From Spirochaetota bacterium (GTDB lineage: Bacteria; Spirochaetota; Spirochaetia; Treponematales; UBA12059), in assembly GCA_029547205.1 (NCBI GenBank), contig JAKPPT010000131.1, positions 1-64,000 on the forward strand: a stretch of 64,000 nucleotides of DNA. The letters run 5' to 3'. This document shows, in pieces, positions 45,382 through 54,883 of this stretch (position 1 is its first letter; every line of letters begins with the position of its first letter). A model generated the notes under the pieces. The model saw only the letters and a program-made list of their open reading frames with translations, did not search any database and was not told where the DNA came from. The translations under genes were made by a program, and so were the position numbers.

Positions 45382-45408
45382 TTGACACGCATGCAATAAG
45401 CATATAAT
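45382..45408 (+). promoter_or_regulatory. Promoter of the histidine operon
   Basis: TTGACA (45382-45387), a 15-base spacer and TATAAT (45403-45408). The hexamers are perfect but the spacing is short. TAATAC at 45405-45410 gives 17. Transcription would start at about 45415, almost at the leader peptide ATG. Confidence 0.65.
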
Positions 45409-45417
45409 ACTGAGCGC

Positions 45418-45477
45418 ATGATTATGTTTTCTATGCATCTCCATCATCATCATTTTTCTCATCCGGAGGCGTCATAG
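45418..45477 (+). CDS. hisL: Histidine operon leader peptide
   Basis: This is a 19-codon open frame, MIMFSMHLHHHHFSHPEAS. It has six His codons in a nine-codon window (45436-45462), all CAT. There is no Shine-Dalgarno, and the promoter places the transcript start within a few bases of the ATG, so it is probably translated leaderless. It lies directly before an antiterminator/terminator pair and the hisG gene. Scarce charged tRNA-His would stall the ribosome in the His run, freeing 45467-45479 for antitermination. Confidence 0.9.
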   Translation: MIMFSMHLHHHHFSHPEAS

Positions 45478-45535
45478 GAGACTAATCATACAGTATATGA
45501 TTGAGCGAGCGAAAGCCGCGGGTCCTATGAGGCCT
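45467..45535 (+). promoter_or_regulatory. his attenuator: antiterminator pairing
   Basis: AGGCGTCATAGGA (45467-45479) can pair with TCCTATGAGGCCT (45523-45535) at 12 of 13 positions. The second strand includes the loop and half of the right arm of the terminator, so the two structures exclude each other. The first strand covers the end and stop codon of the leader peptide and is hidden when the ribosome reads through. A small hairpin (AATCATA/TATGATT, 45484-45502) sits between. Confidence 0.85.
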
Positions 45536-45552
45536 GCGGCTTTTTTATTTTT
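45515..45552 (+). terminator. his attenuator terminator
   Basis: GCCGCGGGTC (45515-45524) pairs with GGCCTGCGGC (45531-45540), ten pairs including two G-U, with a six-base loop, followed by TTTTTTATTTTT. It precedes hisG by 45 bases. Confidence 0.92.
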
Positions 45553-45596
45553 ACTGCAAAAAGCCCAAACATCGGCACACCATGAAGGAGGAAAAC

Positions 45597-46451
45597 ATGG
45601 AAAAGCTAAGATTGCTTATTCCCAAAGGAAGAATCCTGAACAGTATTCTTGAACTGTTCCGAGATTCCGGAATCGTGCTCAGAGCTACAGAACGCGGATA
45701 TAGACCGCTTTCAAGCTTGCAATGGCTCGATGTAAAAATTATGAAACCTCAAAACATAGGAGAACTCCTGGAGCTTGGCAGTCATGATGCAGGTTTTACC
45801 GGTTATGACTGGCTCCAGGAAACACATGCCGATGTCGAAACTGTTATGGATCTTGGGCTTGATCCGGTATCAATTGTTTCAGCAATTCCGGAAAAATTTG
45901 AGCCAGCAACACTTGTACAAAAAGAGCTTGTTGTTGCTACCGAATATATCAATATTGCAAAAGCGTGGCTCGATACAAAAGGGTATCGGTACCGTCTCTT
46001 GAGAACGTACGGCGCAACTGAAGTGTTCCCTCCTGATGATGCAGATATGGTTATCGACAATTCATCAACAGGGGAGACATTAAGAGAAAATGGACTTAAA
46101 GTAGTAGATACAATCCTTACGTCTTCGACCTATTTTGTTTCGTCAAAACAGGCCATGGAAAATCCAGATAAGCGTATGTACATTGATCAACTTGCGATGC
46201 TCTTTACCGCTGTGCTTGATGCTCGAGAACGAGTCATGCTCGAAATGAATATCAGTAAAGCTGCATTGTCCTCCCTTGCCGGAAAGCTGCCCTGCATGCG
46301 CAGTCCTACTATTGCACCGCTCTATGAACAATCAGGTTATGCAGTCAAAATTGCTGTAAAACGAAACGAAGTCCCGCAACTCATACCCCTGCTTAAAACC
46401 ATGGGCGCAACTGACATCGTCGAATACGAGCTTAGAAAAGTTATTCTGTAA
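45597..46451 (+). CDS. hisG: ATP phosphoribosyltransferase, long form
   Basis: This 284-residue enzyme catalyses the first, committed step: PRPP plus ATP to phosphoribosyl-ATP. The N-terminus LLIPKGRILNSILELF is typical, and the PRPP loop is DMVIDNSSTGETLRENGL. The C-terminal regulatory domain (about 210-284, with APLYEQSGYAVKIAVKRNE) makes this the long, HisZ-independent form that is feedback-inhibited by histidine. The ATG at 45597 is preferred because GGAGG lies 5 bases upstream. An in-frame ATG at 45582 precedes that ribosome site. Confidence 0.95.
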   Translation: MEKLRLLIPKGRILNSILELFRDSGIVLRATERGYRPLSSLQWLDVKIMKPQNIGELLELGSHDAGFTGYDWLQETHADVETVMDLGLDPVSIVSAIPEKFEPATLVQKELVVATEYINIAKAWLDTKGYRYRLLRTYGATEVFPPDDADMVIDNSSTGETLRENGLKVVDTILTSSTYFVSSKQAMENPDKRMYIDQLAMLFTAVLDARERVMLEMNISKAALSSLAGKLPCMRSPTIAPLYEQSGYAVKIAVKRNEVPQLIPLLKTMGATDIVEYELRKVIL

Positions 46452-46467
46452 AAGGAGCCTTGATACT

Positions 46468-47112
46468 ATGGAAACAGAAACTAAAAACAAATTAACCTAT
46501 AAACGGTCTGCATTTCTTACAAGGACAACACGAGAAACAAGTATCAGCACAACAGTTACCATTGAGGGGACAGGTAAAGCAATTCTGAGCATTATGCCAG
46601 AGTTCATGAAACACATGTTAGAAACATTTGCACTCTGGAGCAGTCTCGATATTGAACTCGCTGCAGCAGGTGACATAACAGTCGACTTTCACCATCTCAT
46701 AGAAGACACAGGAATAGTATTTGGTCAAGCACTCAACGAAGCACTCGGTTCTAAACAAGGAATACGCCGCTCTGCATTCGCATATATCCCAATGGATGAA
46801 TCTCTCGTTCGCACCGTGATCGATATTTCGGGTAGAGGCTGCTGCTTTCTATCGGGTACCTTTGGAGAATCAGCTATTTACGCAGAAGCCACAACCTTCC
46901 CCGTTTCGCTCATTGAGGATTTCTGGCAGGCATTTGCCCGAAGTGCTGGTGTAACACTGCACATTGACATTCTAAAATCACGGAGTGCACATCACTCAAT
47001 AGAAGCGCTCTTTAAGGCTGCTGGCAGAGCTCTCAAAGAAGCATGTGCAATTGAGCCACCACAATCGGGGACAGACCCCCAAATACTCTCAGTGAAAGGA
47101 GTAATTGCATGA
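46468..47112 (+). CDS. hisB: Imidazoleglycerol-phosphate dehydratase
   Basis: This 214-residue monofunctional dehydratase converts imidazole glycerol phosphate to imidazole acetol phosphate. The Mn-binding His blocks are VDFHHLIEDTGIVFG and SRSAHHSIEALFKAAGRALKEA (split for reading: SRSAHH, then SIEALFKAAGRALKEA). It lacks a phosphatase domain, so histidinol phosphatase must be encoded elsewhere. Its 3' end carries a GGGACAGACC copy, in the codons for Gly-Thr-Asp-Pro. It overlaps hisH by 4 bases. Confidence 0.95.
   Translation: METETKNKLTYKRSAFLTRTTRETSISTTVTIEGTGKAILSIMPEFMKHMLETFALWSSLDIELAAAGDITVDFHHLIEDTGIVFGQALNEALGSKQGIRRSAFAYIPMDESLVRTVIDISGRGCCFLSGTFGESAIYAEATTFPVSLIEDFWQAFARSAGVTLHIDILKSRSAHHSIEALFKAAGRALKEACAIEPPQSGTDPQILSVKGVIA
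47068..47077 (+). repeat. GGGACAGACC word, copy 4
   Basis: This is a reverse-orientation copy inside the 3' end of hisB, extended here to GGGGACAGACCCCC. Confidence 0.6.
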
Positions 47113-47810
47113 TTGGCATTCTCAAAAGCGGAAACTATCGATCGGTATACAATGCGCTAGCCTATCTTGGTTTCGAAGCAGCGATACTCCAACAACCCGA
47201 TGAGCTCAAACCATCATACCGCGCTCTTGTGGTACCCGGTAATGGGAACTTTCAATCATTTATGGAGCGATTGCAACAATCAGGTTGGAAAGATACACTA
47301 CTAACCTGGATTAAAGCAGAAAGACCGTATTTGGGAATTTGTATTGGTTTCCAGATCCTTTTTGAAACAAGCGAAGAAACTATTACAGTTAGAGAGCTCG
47401 TGGTTCCCTCCGAAATCATTGCAAACATTAAACCGGATTCACAACTCACAGAGGGGCTCGGGATCATTCCAGGTTCGGTAAAAAAAATCCAGAGCAGCAA
47501 GGTACCACTCATTGGATGGAACTACACAACATTTTTAAGAAACATCATTTCTAATAGCTACCAAAAAGATGAATATTTTTATTACATCCATTCATACTAT
47601 GCAGCATGCTCAGACCCATCAATCGTAGTTGCTTCAGCAACATACGAAAACACAAAGTACTGTGCTGGGATTGCATACAATAGTATTACAGCTTTTCAGT
47701 TTCATCCGGAACGGTCAGGCATAGCAGGGCTTTCACTGCTCCAGACATGGGCAAACACAGTACAGTCACCGTCAAGCATATCGCGGCTCTCCAGGTACAT
47801 CGGAGGCTAG
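47109..47810 (+). CDS. hisH: Imidazole glycerol phosphate synthase, glutaminase subunit
   Basis: This 233-residue class I glutamine amidotransferase has the nucleophile Cys in YLGICIGFQILFETSEE and the His-x-Glu of the triad in FQFHPERSG. It supplies ammonia to HisF. It is somewhat longer than the usual 200 residues, with an extra stretch at about 95-120 and a short C-terminal tail. Gene order with hisF directly next supports the assignment. Confidence 0.94.
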   Translation: MIGILKSGNYRSVYNALAYLGFEAAILQQPDELKPSYRALVVPGNGNFQSFMERLQQSGWKDTLLTWIKAERPYLGICIGFQILFETSEETITVRELVVPSEIIANIKPDSQLTEGLGIIPGSVKKIQSSKVPLIGWNYTTFLRNIISNSYQKDEYFYYIHSYYAACSDPSIVVASATYENTKYCAGIAYNSITAFQFHPERSGIAGLSLLQTWANTVQSPSSISRLSRYIGG

Positions 47811-47814
47811 AACC

Positions 47815-48576
47815 ATGACGGCTAAAAGAATTATCCCCTGCCTCGATATTGCGAATGGAACAGTGGTCAAAGGCAATCAGTATCGAGCACTCACTCCAAT
47901 AGGTGATCCACTAAAACTTGTTCGGCGATACGAACAGGATGGTGCTGACGAAATCATTTTGCTCGATATCCTTGCAACACCAGATGCCCAAACACCGATG
48001 ACTGACCTCATACGACTACTCACTCCGTCTACCTTTATTCCTATATGTGTTGGCGGCGGCATCAGAAGCTTAGACGATGTGCATGCACTCATGGATGCGG
48101 GCACCGATAAGGTAGCAATATGCAGTGCTGCACTTGAAAACCCTGCACTCATTACCACAATAGCAAAACAGTACGGGAGCCAGTGCGTCGTTGTTTCCAT
48201 CGATGCAAAACAGGACACGACGCGAAAAACATGGTTGTGTTTTTCTCATGGTGGCAGAACAAACACCGGCATCGATGTCCTAACCTGGGCACAGGAAGCT
48301 GAAGCGCGTGGAGCAGGAGAAATTCTCCTCAACTCAATTGATGCTGATGGCACTGGAAAAGGATATGACATCAAACTGCTCAAAGCTGTTTCTACACGAG
48401 TACACATTCCTGTAATTGCATCGAGCGGTGCCGGAACCCTTGCACACATTCGCGATGCGTTCTCTGTAGGTCATGCCGATGCAGTCCTCATTGCGGGAAT
48501 GCTGCATCGTCGAGAGACAACCATACAAGCAATCAAACAATTTTTATTAGAAGAAGGAGTTACAGTACGATGTTAA
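47815..48576 (+). CDS. hisF: Imidazole glycerol phosphate synthase, cyclase subunit
   Basis: This 253-residue TIM-barrel enzyme forms imidazole glycerol phosphate and AICAR. The catalytic Asp residues are in IIPCLDIANGTVVKG and LLNSIDADGTGKGYD. Phosphate-binding Gly blocks are CVGGGIRS and ASSGAGT. The length is normal. It overlaps the next gene by 7 bases. Confidence 0.96.
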   Translation: MTAKRIIPCLDIANGTVVKGNQYRALTPIGDPLKLVRRYEQDGADEIILLDILATPDAQTPMTDLIRLLTPSTFIPICVGGGIRSLDDVHALMDAGTDKVAICSAALENPALITTIAKQYGSQCVVVSIDAKQDTTRKTWLCFSHGGRTNTGIDVLTWAQEAEARGAGEILLNSIDADGTGKGYDIKLLKAVSTRVHIPVIASSGAGTLAHIRDAFSVGHADAVLIAGMLHRRETTIQAIKQFLLEEGVTVRC

Positions 48577-49838
48577 TACCATCAATCGATATATCACAAG
48601 GCAAAGTGGTTCAGCTTAAACAAGGCGAGACGCTGATGCTCGAACGCGACAATCCGGAACAGCTCGTTCAGGAATTCTCTTTATATGGAGTACCTGCTCT
48701 CATCGATATTGACGCAGCAAAAGGTGAAGGCTCTAACCGTAATCTCATTACCTCACTACTTAAACTGCAATCATGCATAGTAGGAGGAGGCATCCGCACC
48801 ATTGAAGATGCTCGCTACTATATTGCAAATGGAGCAAAAAAAATAATTATTGGTTCGAGCATATTTTCTAAAAAACCAGAAACAGGTCAGTACACTATCA
48901 ATGAAGTATTGCTTTCCGAACTGCAAAAAACAATTGGAAGATCACGAATTATTGCAGCACTTGATGTACGCGATGAAACGGTTGTCATTAATGGCTGGAA
49001 ATCATCAACAGCGTTAAATATTTTTTCACTGCTGCCAAAAATCGAGCAGTATGCAGGTACCGTGCTGATTACGTCGGTACACCGAGAAGGACTTATGGCA
49101 GGGACAGACTTGCAGCTCTATAAAAAAATTAGGGAAACCACTAACATGCCTGTAATCGCAGCAGGCGGAATATTCACACAGCAAGAAATACAAGCACTCG
49201 CTCAGCTCAACATCGATTCGCAGCTCGGCATGGCTCTTTACACTAACCAACTTTCACTACCCGATGCCTTTAGTGCACAGCTGAACTGGTCTTCCGAATT
49301 GCTTCCTGTTATTGCACAAAGTCCCGAGGGGTCAGTCCTCATGCTAGGTTATACAAACCAGGAAGCGCTCAAGGAAAGTTTTTTACGACGCAAACTGTGC
49401 TTTTACAGCAGGAGCCGGAAGCGCCTCTGGATGAAAGGGGAAACGTCTGGTAACACGCTCGCCCTCATCAGCATGCGTACCGACTGCGACCGTGATACCA
49501 TTCTAGCACAAGTTGTCCCCAAAAGCCCGGTATGTCACACAGGGAACGGAACCTGTTTTGGTGAACCTATATTCACACTGGAACAGCTCCAGAACATCAT
49601 CAGAGAACGATTTACCAATCCGACACCGGGCTCATATACAGCAACTCTTGATGACAGTGCAGCACGTGCAAAGCTCATGGAAGAAGCACAGGAAGTCTGC
49701 GAAGCGAATACCGCAGAGGAAGTTATCTGGGAATCTGCCGATGTGCTCTACTTTCTCCTTGTGCTCATGACCAAAAAAGGGGTCAGTCTTGATGCAGTTC
49801 TGCGGGAACTCGAACGGAGAAGGAGGCTCAAGCAATGA
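48570..49838 (+). CDS. HisA-HisI-HisE trifunctional fusion
   Basis: This 422-residue protein carries three his-pathway domains. Residues 1-235 are HisA, the ProFAR isomerase TIM barrel: LIPSIDISQGKVVQL gives the first catalytic Asp and ALDVRD the second. The usual DxxxDG block is diverged to TSVHREG. Residues about 240-335 are HisI, phosphoribosyl-AMP cyclohydrolase, with SRSRKRLWMKGETSGN, the metal site RTDCDRD and VCHTGNGTC. Residues about 335-422 are HisE, phosphoribosyl-ATP pyrophosphatase, with LMEEAQEV and SADVLYFLLVLM. It thus does steps 2, 3 and 4 in one chain. HisIE fusions are common; the added HisA is not. Confidence 0.9.
   Translation: MLIPSIDISQGKVVQLKQGETLMLERDNPEQLVQEFSLYGVPALIDIDAAKGEGSNRNLITSLLKLQSCIVGGGIRTIEDARYYIANGAKKIIIGSSIFSKKPETGQYTINEVLLSELQKTIGRSRIIAALDVRDETVVINGWKSSTALNIFSLLPKIEQYAGTVLITSVHREGLMAGTDLQLYKKIRETTNMPVIAAGGIFTQQEIQALAQLNIDSQLGMALYTNQLSLPDAFSAQLNWSSELLPVIAQSPEGSVLMLGYTNQEALKESFLRRKLCFYSRSRKRLWMKGETSGNTLALISMRTDCDRDTILAQVVPKSPVCHTGNGTCFGEPIFTLEQLQNIIRERFTNPTPGSYTATLDDSAARAKLMEEAQEVCEANTAEEVIWESADVLYFLLVLMTKKGVSLDAVLRELERRRRLKQ
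49101..49109 (+). repeat. GGGACAGAC word, near-copy
   Basis: This is a nine-base match to the recurrent word inside the HisA part of the fusion gene; the tenth base is T instead of C. Confidence 0.4.
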
Positions 49839-50914
49839 AATATTGGAATGAACGCATTAGCACGATCGAACCCTACACTCCCGGAGAGCAACCTCAAGAC
49901 AGCAACTGGATCAAGCTCAACACTAATGAAAACCCTTGGGAACCCGCACCATCGGTACTCGAGTCAATCATGAACGCTGCGGCAGCAAACCTCAATCGAT
50001 ACCCTGACCCCAATGCTCGGTTGTTTTGCTCTGCAGCAGCACAGTATTGCAAGGTTCCTGAGTCATACATATTTGCTGGAAATGGTTCCGATGAAATTCT
50101 CGCTTTTGCGTTTGGGGCACTGTTTAAACCGCCCATTGTGTTTCCCGATGTAACCTACAGCTTCTATCCCATATATGCTGAGCTCTGGTCGCTTCCATAT
50201 GAAACCGTTCCGCTTAGCGATAATTTTGTTATCTATCCGGAAATGCTCTTGAGACCATGCGGCGGTGTTATGCTCTGTAATCCAAACGCACCAACAGGTA
50301 TTGCATTACCGCGTGAACGTGTGCTTGAAATCGTCTCCTATCACCAAAAACAAAACACTGTCGTAATTGTTGATGAAGCGTATGTCGAGTTCGGAGCAGA
50401 ATCTGTTGTCCGTGACACAGAACAGTACGACAACCTGCTTGTCGTGAGGACACTCTCAAAATCAAAAAGCATTGCCGGTCTCAGGGCAGGATATGCTGTT
50501 GGAAATCCTGATCTCATAGCTGGCCTCAAGCGGATACGCGATATGGTCAATTCATATACCATGAACACAGTCTCTCAACTTGCCGGGGCAGCTGCTCTGC
50601 TCGCAGAAGAATACTATGCAGCGAAAACTTCTCTGCTCATCAGGACTCGAGAAGCGACACGGGATCGCCTCATAGCAGGAGGATGGCAAGTGCTCCCCTC
50701 AAGTTCTAATTTCTTATTCATGAGTCTTCCTGGTACAAACGGAGTTGAACTCTACAGCGCATTTAAGGAGCGACGCATACTCGTGCGCTACTGGGATAAA
50801 CCTAAAATACGCAATCACATCAGAGTTACAATAGGCACTCCAGAGGAAATGGATATTTTTTGCCAGACAGCGCTCGAGCTTGCTGGATCTAACCGTAATG
50901 CACAAGGAGCATAG
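49835..50914 (+). CDS. hisC: Histidinol-phosphate aminotransferase
   Basis: This 359-residue PLP aminotransferase converts imidazole acetol phosphate to histidinol phosphate. The N-terminal KLNTNENPWEP and LNRYPDP, the GNGSDEIL block, the VDEAYVEFG block and the PLP-lysine block TLSKSKSIAGLRAGY are as in HisC. The start overlaps the fusion gene's stop by 4 bases. Confidence 0.95.
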   Translation: MKYWNERISTIEPYTPGEQPQDSNWIKLNTNENPWEPAPSVLESIMNAAAANLNRYPDPNARLFCSAAAQYCKVPESYIFAGNGSDEILAFAFGALFKPPIVFPDVTYSFYPIYAELWSLPYETVPLSDNFVIYPEMLLRPCGGVMLCNPNAPTGIALPRERVLEIVSYHQKQNTVVIVDEAYVEFGAESVVRDTEQYDNLLVVRTLSKSKSIAGLRAGYAVGNPDLIAGLKRIRDMVNSYTMNTVSQLAGAAALLAEEYYAAKTSLLIRTREATRDRLIAGGWQVLPSSSNFLFMSLPGTNGVELYSAFKERRILVRYWDKPKIRNHIRVTIGTPEEMDIFCQTALELAGSNRNAQGA

Positions 50915-50919
50915 CAACT

Positions 50920-52296
50920 ATGGAAACCTTACAAAACAAAAAATCAGAAACTATCAGCAACTCAATTCCGTTATATAGAAGCGAACAATTTTTAACTTTA
51001 TGGAACAAAATTCAGGCTACAAGCAATAGTGGCAACAAAGCAATCGTTACTGCCGTATCGGAAATTATTGAAAACGTACGAACCAATGGAGATAGTTCGC
51101 TCTATCGGTATACGGAACAATTCGATGGAGTCAGGCTTTCCACTTTGAGAGTAACACAGGCTGATATTGAGCGAGCATACAGTGATCTCAACAGTGAAAA
51201 CCCTGCGCTCATTGCTGCACTCAAAAAAGCAGCTCATAGTATTCGGAGATTTGCAGAACTCCAGGCTGCTGAGCTGCAAAATTTTCAAGTAATGATCGCA
51301 CCCGGTGTTAGTGCAGGTCAGAAAATAGTACCAGTTACCGCTGCAGGTATTTATGTCCCCGGAGGACGGTATCCGCTTATTTCATCGGTGCTCATGGGTG
51401 CAATCCCTGCACGAGTAGCTGGAGTTAAAAAAATAATACTTGCAACCCCACCCACAGCATCGGGAACACCCGCATCAGGTATTTTAGCAGCCGCAAAAAT
51501 TGCTCAGGTAGATGAAGTGTATACAATTGGCGGAGCACAGGCTATAGCAGCGCTGGCTTTTGGCACAGAGACTGTCCCCCGTGTCGATGTCATTGCAGGA
51601 CCGGGAAATGCCTACGTTGCAGAAGCAAAGCGTCAGGTGTACGGCTACGTAGGAATTGATCTCATTGCAGGACCAACCGATATTCTCATTCTAGCCGATG
51701 AAAAGCACTGTACCGGTATCGGTGCTCGCCTCATTGCATTGGATATGCTTGCACAGGCAGAACACGACCCCAACGCTCAAGCGCGCGTACTTGTCCCGAG
51801 TGAAGCAGCAGGAAATGCAATTAATAAAGCTCTACAGGAAGAGCTTGCACAGTGCAAAAATAAAAATATAGTAACAAGCTCACTTTCTGCTAACGCTGCA
51901 ATTATTGTTTATTCGACAGTCTCAGAAGCAATCTCACTTGCAAATACCATTGCTCCAGAACATCTCGAACTCTTTTGCAGTAATGCAGCGTATATCAGTC
52001 AGAATCTCATTAATTACGGTTCGCTATTTATTGGTCAGCTCACTCCCGAAGTTCTCGGCGACTACGCTGCCGGCGTCAACCATACACTGCCAACTATGGG
52101 TAACGCACGCTTTTCGAGCGGTCTTTCCGTGAGAACCTTTCTTAAATCATCAACCTTTCTTTCCTGCCGCGAAGGAACAGGTCTTGCAGAATTGCTCGAA
52201 ACGAGCATGATTATCGCAGAAGCAGAGGGCATCTTTGCTCATAAGCACAGCGCACAGGCAAGAGTTATGCTTAGCAAAAACGGTGAACCTAGATGA
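50920..52296 (+). CDS. hisD: Histidinol dehydrogenase
   Basis: This 458-residue enzyme performs the last two NAD-dependent oxidations to histidine. Signatures are YVPGGRYPL, AGPTDILILADE, LAQAEHDPNAQA with zinc and catalytic residues, APEHLEL and VNHTLPTMGNARFSSGLSV. AAGGAG precedes the ATG. It is the last gene of the operon and is followed by a terminator. Confidence 0.96.
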   Translation: METLQNKKSETISNSIPLYRSEQFLTLWNKIQATSNSGNKAIVTAVSEIIENVRTNGDSSLYRYTEQFDGVRLSTLRVTQADIERAYSDLNSENPALIAALKKAAHSIRRFAELQAAELQNFQVMIAPGVSAGQKIVPVTAAGIYVPGGRYPLISSVLMGAIPARVAGVKKIILATPPTASGTPASGILAAAKIAQVDEVYTIGGAQAIAALAFGTETVPRVDVIAGPGNAYVAEAKRQVYGYVGIDLIAGPTDILILADEKHCTGIGARLIALDMLAQAEHDPNAQARVLVPSEAAGNAINKALQEELAQCKNKNIVTSSLSANAAIIVYSTVSEAISLANTIAPEHLELFCSNAAYISQNLINYGSLFIGQLTPEVLGDYAAGVNHTLPTMGNARFSSGLSVRTFLKSSTFLSCREGTGLAELLETSMIIAEAEGIFAHKHSAQARVMLSKNGEPR

Positions 52297-52516: not shown

Positions 52517-54883
52517 ATGGACAAACAGGAAATCCTCAATTCTATTATCGCCGATCCTCGCTTTGCCAAAAACATAGTGTATGAAAAAATCATCCCTGCT
52601 ACGCATGGAACATATAGCAATTTCCCAGCAACCCTGCCGGGACCGCTTGTTACTGCACTACGGGCTCGGGGAATTGAACAGCTCTATACTCATCAGGCAG
52701 AAGTATGGGAAGCAGCACAGCAGGGCAATAATGTCATTGTTGTAACCCCTACCGCATCGGGGAAGACTCTATCGTATAACCTTCCCGTGCTTTCTGCTCT
52801 GCTCACCGATGAGCATGCCCGTGCTTTGTACCTCTTTCCAACAAAAGCGCTCTCACAGGACCAACAATCAGAACTCAACGAACTCATTCTTGCATCACAG
52901 GGATCACTTCCTATCAAAATATGCACCTATGACGGGGACACACCAGAATCTCTGCGGATATCCGCGCGCGATACGGGACGCATCATAATAAGCAACCCCG
53001 ATATGCTCCATACAGGGATACTTCCCAACCATCCCAAATGGATAAAATTTTTTTCACGCCTCAAATATATCATTATTGATGAAGCACATGCTTACCGTGG
53101 TGTTTTTGGCAGCCATGTCGCAAATGTGATACGCCGATTAAAACGCATTACCGCATTTTATGGAGCAAAACCACAATTTATCCTCTGCTCAGCTACTATT
53201 GGTAATCCTCAAGAACTAGCGGAATCACTCATTGGAGAACCCATAACCCTCGTTGATAATAACGGTGCACCACAAAGCGAAAAACGTATTATCCTATACA
53301 ATCCACCTATCGTTGATTATGTCCAGGGCATCAGAATAAGTTCTATTAACGAAAGTCGGAGATGGGCTGTCGCTTTGCTCAAAGCAGGTATAAAAACAAT
53401 TCTCTTTGCGCATTCCCGTGTCAAAACCGAGGTCGCTGCAAGCTATATTCGTGAAGACCTTGCTAATTTTTATACCGATAACAGCCGCATACGCATCGAG
53501 CCATACCGCGGAGGGCTCCTCCCAAACGAACGGAGAGAAATTGAGCGGGGACTCCGTGAAGGCACAATTCACGGCGTCGTTTCCACCAACGCACTGGAAC
53601 TTGGTATTGATATTGGCGGACTCGATGCTGCAGTCGTAGCAGGATACCCCGGATCGTTTAACTCGTTCTGGCAGCAAATAGGTCGAGCTGGTCGGCGAGG
53701 CGGACTATCAGCATCGATATTTGTAGCATCATCTGCTCCACTCGATCAATTCATTATGAATGATCCTGAATGGTTCTTTAACAAGAATCATGAAGAAGCC
53801 CTGCTCGATCCAGATAATCCATACATTTACCTTGATCATGTAAAGTGTGCTGCTTTCGAACTTCCGTTTACTGCGGATGCACTCTCAAAAGACCCCTTTG
53901 GAGTGAATGCCCGCGATGCACTTGAGTTTTTAGAGGAAGATGGTATCGTTCGCCTGAGTGGAAACCGCTGGCACTGGTCTGATCGATCCTACCCTGCAGA
54001 AAGCATCAGTCTTCGTTCTGCAGCAAGCGATAATGTAGTAATCATTGACACAACACGTGGACGCAATACAGTCATTGGAGAAATGGACAGACCGAGCGCA
54101 AAAGAGCTCCTGTTTGATAATGCTGTTTACATTCACCGTGGAAATCAATTTATTGTAACAAAACTGGACTTAGAAAACCATAAATGTTTTGTTGAAGAAT
54201 CTGAAACAAATTACTATACCGATGCGCTTGTAAAAACAGATATCAAGCCACTCTCCGAAGACGAATCATATGAGTATGCGGTTTCTGAACCACATTCTGA
54301 GCAATCAGACAATGCTGCCCAGACACGAAAAATTCTTGCACGCGCCATAGTCGGTGATGTACTTGTACGGTCACAGGTTGCAAAGTATAAAAAGATCCGC
54401 TTTCATACCCATGAAAATGTAGGCTATGGAGACATTTCTCTCCCAGAAGAAGAAGTGCAGACGCGAGCCATAGCGCTCCTTTTTGGAGATGACACAATTG
54501 CGGGAAAAACGCTAACCGATCTTTCGGAAGAAGCTCTCGGCGATCTCCTTGCTGGTCTCGGTAATCTTGTAAAACACATCGCTCCAATTTTCCTGCTCTG
54601 CGATCCCCGGGATATCGGCATAGCCGAACGCGTACGGGATCCACACTTTGAAGTACCAGCGTTATATGTATATGACCACTATCCCGGAGGCACGGGTCTT
54701 GCGGAAGGCATTGCAGAGAAGGTTCCAGATCTCCTGCGATCTACTGCAAAAGCGCTCTTCGCCTGTCCCTGTAAGAACGGATGCCCATCGTGTGTCGGAC
54801 CAGAACATGATAAGACACTCGTTACTAATTTTTTTCATGCACTTATAATGCCGTCTGAGCTATCCAGTATCTTTATGCAGTAA
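52517..54883 (+). CDS. mrfA: MrfA-like DEAD/DEAH-box helicase with DUF1998 domain
   Basis: This 788-residue superfamily 2 helicase has Walker A VTPTASGKTLSYN (about 75-88), DEAH in IIDEAHAYRG, motif III CSATIGNP and motif VI QQIGRAGRRGG. The C-terminal DUF1998 domain ends with a four-Cys zinc site, CPCKNGCPSC. This is the layout of Bacillus YprA/MrfA and yeast Hrq1, 3'-5' helicases. In Bacillus MrfA acts with the exonuclease MrfB in a UvrABC-independent mitomycin crosslink repair route. The MrfB-like gene follows after 9 bases, which supports the assignment. Confidence 0.88.
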   Translation: MDKQEILNSIIADPRFAKNIVYEKIIPATHGTYSNFPATLPGPLVTALRARGIEQLYTHQAEVWEAAQQGNNVIVVTPTASGKTLSYNLPVLSALLTDEHARALYLFPTKALSQDQQSELNELILASQGSLPIKICTYDGDTPESLRISARDTGRIIISNPDMLHTGILPNHPKWIKFFSRLKYIIIDEAHAYRGVFGSHVANVIRRLKRITAFYGAKPQFILCSATIGNPQELAESLIGEPITLVDNNGAPQSEKRIILYNPPIVDYVQGIRISSINESRRWAVALLKAGIKTILFAHSRVKTEVAASYIREDLANFYTDNSRIRIEPYRGGLLPNERREIERGLREGTIHGVVSTNALELGIDIGGLDAAVVAGYPGSFNSFWQQIGRAGRRGGLSASIFVASSAPLDQFIMNDPEWFFNKNHEEALLDPDNPYIYLDHVKCAAFELPFTADALSKDPFGVNARDALEFLEEDGIVRLSGNRWHWSDRSYPAESISLRSAASDNVVIIDTTRGRNTVIGEMDRPSAKELLFDNAVYIHRGNQFIVTKLDLENHKCFVEESETNYYTDALVKTDIKPLSEDESYEYAVSEPHSEQSDNAAQTRKILARAIVGDVLVRSQVAKYKKIRFHTHENVGYGDISLPEEEVQTRAIALLFGDDTIAGKTLTDLSEEALGDLLAGLGNLVKHIAPIFLLCDPRDIGIAERVRDPHFEVPALYVYDHYPGGTGLAEGIAEKVPDLLRSTAKALFACPCKNGCPSCVGPEHDKTLVTNFFHALIMPSELSSIFMQ

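Follow-up and report, generated by a model that had tools for sequence, protein, structure and literature searches.

A probable leader-peptide attenuator of the histidine operon in Spirochaetia with a putatively leaderless sensor ORF

Described attenuators and the locus upstream of hisG

The enterobacterial hisL leader has an ordinary 5' untranslated region (UTR). Histidine (his) operons have known or predicted leader attenuators in Proteobacteria; such attenuators are also described for three groups of Firmicutes, the B. cereus group, Peptostreptococcaceae and Erysipelotrichales (PMC9413887, PMC2965389). The initial annotation linked the mechanism mainly to Proteobacteria, to which it is not confined. 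For other amino acids, the leader-peptide ORF of Sinorhizobium meliloti trpL is leaderless and lies at the transcript 5' end (PMC10117765), and leaderless translation has been discussed for Corynebacterium glutamicum ilvL, whose first hairpin is proposed both to block initiation and to act as an anti-antiterminator (PMC11857589).

The window, which is the whole 64,000-nt stretch of DNA analyzed here, contains an uninterrupted operon of seven genes on the + strand (45597-52296: hisG, hisB, hisH, hisF, a hisA-hisIE fusion, hisC and hisD). The first gene after the leader, hisG (TIGR00070; 45597-46448, + strand), starts with an ATG at 45597 and is preceded by the Shine-Dalgarno sequence AAGGAGG (45585-45591, + strand). 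The hisA-hisIE ORF (48570-49838, + strand) encodes 422 amino acids, with HisA at residues 1-231 and HisIE at 235-419, and so unites three his functions. Upstream of hisG lies a leader ORF of 19 codons, MIMFSMHLHHHHFSHPEAS (45418-45477, + strand), identified from the sequence and from His-rich leaders in relatives. It reads ATG ATT ATG TTT TCT ATG CAT CTC CAT CAT CAT CAT TTT TCT CAT CCG GAG GCG TCA TAG, with six CAT codons within nine, just as first annotated.

Like enterobacterial hisL, this locus has consecutive His codons in a short ORF before the first gene, an intrinsic terminator between that ORF and hisG, an antiterminator exclusive with the terminator, and a predicted default-off state when untranslated. 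The parts of a classical enterobacterial attenuator named in the initial annotation are present, but the layout differs: the 10 kb surrounding the site contain no match to the Rfam family RF00514 (His_leader) with an E value of 1 or less, no Shine-Dalgarno sequence precedes the leader ORF, the AUG probably lies at or near the 5' end, and strand 1 of the alternative stems falls inside the leader ORF. The best RF00514 match in relatives, L006:1297-1408 (+ strand), coincides exactly with the predicted attenuator and is below threshold (26 bits versus a cut-off of 49, E 4.3). Other Rfam matches in relatives were treated as chance: L088 matched two microRNA families at E < 0.01, and all remaining matches had E of at least 0.19. 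As in the predicted attenuators of Firmicutes, a His-rich leader, terminator and antiterminator precede his genes outside Proteobacteria; unlike them, the locus belongs to another phylum, and its leaderless geometry is not among the features described in the consulted parts of PMC9413887 and PMC2965389, a comparison made by description.

T-boxes control the his operon in some Firmicutes and Actinobacteria (PMC9413887), and the His-rich frame might merely be held within another RNA sensor of histidine, such as a T-box or ligand riboswitch. This is extremely improbable: a scan of the 10 kb surrounding the site gives no match to any Rfam family with an E value of 1 or less, the T-box family is found neither there nor in the loci of 16 relatives, and the transcript up to the terminator spans only ~130 nt, most of which the ORF and three stems explain. 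Directly observed here are the leader ORF, the promoter-like boxes and the terminator, together with stems that exclude each other, folds that depend on the modeled ribosome state, and conservation. These features very probably make up a ribosome-mediated attenuator that controls transcription of the his operon and has a leaderless sensor ORF; its start site, leaderless initiation, ribosome stalling and regulation by histidine are what we infer.

Terminator, alternative stems and their conservation

A terminator before hisG, initially placed at 45515-45540, is present and extends further: the 3:4 hairpin has 14 pairs (45511-45544, + strand; local fold energy -24.2 kcal/mol), is followed by TTATTTTT with a T tract to ~45552, and is kept in relatives. 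The strand 3 core (45523-45535, + strand; TCCTATGAGGCCT), which comprises part of the terminator 5' arm, the loop and the start of the 3' arm, is complementary at 12 of 13 positions to 45467-45479 (AGGCGTCATAGGA). This previously reported complementarity was recomputed and is real, and an equivalent helix occurs in 20 relatives. Two further parts came to light, promoter-like boxes (see below) and a 1:2 stem. In the unmasked leader, RNAfold pairs strand 1, the 5' part of the leader (45415-45442, + strand), with strand 2 (45465-45489, + strand) in a duplex of -27.3 kcal/mol. Without a ribosome, strand 1 would thus act as an anti-antiterminator that also hides the AUG, while strand 2 could alternatively pair with strand 3 through 45467-45479. 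The 1:2 stem completes the 1:2/2:3/3:4 logic of a classical attenuator. The RNA from 45410 to 45560 has a fold that beats all 200 shuffles, with a z-score of -4.7.

Ribosome positions were modeled by folding the transcript with the footprint removed, on the assumption that the footprint reaches 12 nt from the first base of the A site. When the A site occupies the tested codons between 45436 and 45451, the antiterminator is the most stable fold (-39.1 to -39.2 kcal/mol), and it stays so as the chain grows. Masking a ribosome at the leader stop gives the terminator fold (-24.2 kcal/mol), and the transcript without a ribosome forms the 1:2 stem plus the terminator. These modeled states agree with the earlier proposal that stalling at 45436-45453 frees the antiterminator strand and that reading to the stop hides it. 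When the stall is placed on the sixth His (45460), the ribosome hides part of strand 2 and the terminator becomes the predicted fold; this codon is therefore probably not one that controls the switch, and the working control codons are probably the first five CAT, in His-Leu-His-His-His-His (45436-45453, + strand). Thus, in the folding models and with conservation in relatives, the antiterminator is exclusive with the terminator and is chosen by ribosome position.

Pairing in relatives was scored on a structure-blind MAFFT alignment (A2) of 20 relatives. The antiterminator is paired in 84.7% of cells and the terminator in 97.2%, in counts that lean to well-aligned loci because the window, L033, L062, L080, L081 and L107 (misaligned by MAFFT or with different terminators) were left out. 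Double-sided changes in the antiterminator number 20 versus 9.3 in shuffles and its covariation score exceeds all 500 of 500 shuffles, a comparison in which related sequences may beat shuffles without any structure. Sliding the antiterminator register lowers pairing to 34-51%, in a control biased in its favor as the pairings were written after the alignment was viewed. A pairing like that of strands 1 and 2 is seen in 43 of 59 loci. Taken locus by locus, antiterminator duplex energies mostly fall short of significance, since the GC-rich arms of terminators can pair with many sequences; some loci also used a second or wrong terminator. The analysis therefore relies on alignment-based pair counts. 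The case for the switch is the conserved pairing and the slide and shuffle controls, together with the forced-state folds. The conservation check suggested in the initial annotation thus came out in its favor: upstream of hisG in relatives, the His leader and both alternative stems are kept, and the antiterminator covaries.

Past the His run, the C-terminal part of the leader (HLHHHGHAYAVAMIVIP) is kept in the own-family loci L016, L018-L020 and L022-L024, where the conserved codons possibly double as the antiterminator arm. Conserved tails in some genera would also suit translation coupling or an action of the peptide itself, with a plain terminator of the operon-boundary type read through at a fixed rate. 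Such a scheme is very unlikely: the terminator sits between the promoter and hisG, the antiterminator shows both conservation and covariation, and 119 nt separate the leader stop codon (45475-45477) from hisG in the window.

Promoter-like boxes and the leader start

For the predicted attenuator, the start of transcription is suggested by promoter-like boxes at 45382-45411 (+ strand), recognized in the sequence and by the same geometry in relatives. The window has a perfect TTGACA at 45382-45387 and an ambiguous -10 element, either TATAAT at 45403-45408 (15-nt spacer) or AATACT at 45406-45411 (18-nt spacer). The leader ATG follows these by 9 and 6 nt, respectively, and transcription is predicted to start at ~45415-45418.

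A TTGACA-like box (at least 5/6) is found near all 59 leaders collected from relatives. When starts were chosen blind to the promoter, the start codon lies 34-40 nt downstream of the first base of the box in 47 of 59 leaders; when any in-frame start is allowed, this geometry holds for 57 of 59, versus 54 of 1402 other ATGs (3.9%). Before these 59 were counted, inspection removed 14 His-rich frames (for example, L008, L045, L063, L034) that lacked a plausible start, promoter or terminator; counting all of them as failures still leaves 57 of 73. With an assumed spacer of 16-18 nt, most -10 elements end 6-10 nt upstream of the leader start codon, which places that codon at the usual position of transcription start. 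A Shine-Dalgarno-like sequence precedes only 4 of 59 leaders versus 26 of 29 hisG genes. Given this geometry and the few leaders with a Shine-Dalgarno sequence, the leader ORF is probably translated leaderless, with its start codon no more than a few bases from the predicted 5' end. The rule has exceptions: L062 has a longer box-to-start gap, and the L193 leader (family f13) has AGGAGG and an ordinary, longer 5' UTR.

L193, and a 5' end placed by prediction, leave room for a version of the same attenuator that has an ordinary leader led by a ribosome-binding site, is transcribed from further upstream and has a TTGACA-like box that is incidental or secondary. This arrangement is unlikely in view of the box-to-start geometry and the rarity of Shine-Dalgarno-like sequences before leaders. 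In the preferred leaderless arrangement, the leader ORF would resemble S. meliloti trpL and C. glutamicum ilvL in lying at the transcript 5' end, and its first hairpin would resemble that of ilvL in the proposed double role of initiation block and anti-antiterminator. Those systems serve other amino acids in other phyla, whereas here, in several families of spirochaetes, nearly all leaders of a his attenuator share the leaderless geometry.

Distribution in Spirochaetota and proposed mechanism

Regions upstream of hisG, gathered by HisG searches of relatives, the phylum and named genomes, were scanned for at least 4 His in 7 codons. This criterion is satisfied by chance in 15 of 2500 dinucleotide shuffles of such regions (0.6%) and in 0 of 125 reverse strands. 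Families carry anonymous labels, f1 being that of the window; from genome names, f5 may correspond roughly to Breznakiellaceae and f3 to Treponemataceae, and f13 is guessed to be Sphaerochaetaceae. A His-rich leader is found in 14 of 14 own-family genomes examined that have hisG, in 8 of 9 of f4, and in two other families of the order, f5 (5 of 11; 6 without) and f3 (3 of 16; 13 without). Among 75 named loci, 25 have the leader and 50 do not; the carriers are mostly termite-gut treponemes and include Breznakiella homolactica (L033) and Brucepastera parasyntrophica (L110). A HisG-domain search adds five of six genera of f13, another family in the class (L190-L194, of which L190 has just three His), and yields no leader in 14 other genomes of the class. 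None precedes hisG in 40 Spirochaetota outside the order. A further 20 members of the phylum also lack one close to hisG; one of these has a distant three-His frame.

His runs as such are rare: a pattern search used as a genome-wide null finds only 17 CAY4 sites in 2.65 Mb. The existence of those 17 leaves room for a His-rich frame and a terminator having come together by accident, an idea refuted by clade-wide conservation at the same place, with the forced-state folds also speaking against it; its probability is close to nil. On the HisG tree, the leader label of the putative attenuator needs at least 10 changes versus 19 in shuffles, a pattern that fits an old trait with repeated loss and could also reflect repeated gain. 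The clade-bound spread in the class Spirochaetia likewise fits an old group trait with losses. An origin by transfer, one of the two initially entertained, finds no backing, since nothing points to recent transfer from Proteobacteria; the other, an independent origin, is possible.

The window's HisG resembles those of f5 (60-65%) more than those of its own f1 (44-47%). The neighboring helicase (52517-54883, + strand) shares this preference (mostly 67-72% versus 57-65%), so the HisG pattern probably reflects lineage position rather than horizontal transfer of the his operon into the lineage. With both proteins nearer f5, the placement of the lineage deserves a check.

Ile- or Val-rich short ORFs followed by terminators occur upstream of ilvB in L226, L233 and L228 (relatives G033, G037 and G036) and are candidate branched-chain attenuators. 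The L226 and L233 leaders (MAVSARNGIIIISSIIITPGMMKEE and MKTKSLVKVVTVLVLVVSC) have a near-leaderless promoter geometry; that of L228 has an Ile run and a Shine-Dalgarno sequence. Searches upstream of trpE in relatives gave no clear Trp leaders. In the window's whole genome (G000), the his operon is complete, but neither the N-terminal domain of trpE (PF04715) nor ilvB (TIGR00118) is matched; the organism may be an auxotroph for Trp and for branched-chain amino acids.

In the proposed mechanism, RNA polymerase would start at or within ~3 nt of the leader AUG, and a ribosome would load on the emerging 5' end. With plentiful charged tRNA-His, the ribosome would reach the stop codon and cover strand 2, allowing the 3:4 terminator to end transcription before hisG. 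With uncharged tRNA-His, it would stall within 45436-45453 and cover strand 1, leaving strand 2 free for the 2:3 antiterminator, and the seven-gene operon would be read. Without a ribosome, the 1:2 stem would hide both the AUG and strand 2, and termination would be the default. More broadly, leader-peptide attenuation may be a long-standing, independently evolved Spirochaetia design built around leaderless initiation, serving his in several families and branched-chain genes in some relatives, a generalization to which we give even chances. If the transcript begins with the sensor AUG, the first hairpin would govern both ribosome entry and the antiterminator.

The attenuator type is already known, and what is new is the host group and probably the leaderless sensor ORF; no earlier report of spirochaete his attenuators was found in the open-access literature searched. 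The locus extends his leader-peptide attenuation to Spirochaetota, with 59 leaders being enough to read design rules. If the transcript starts at the sensor AUG, ribosome loading would be coupled to the earliest nucleotides made, which could help to synchronize polymerase and ribosome. The clear pattern of presence and absence offers a clean case for studying attenuator gain and loss.
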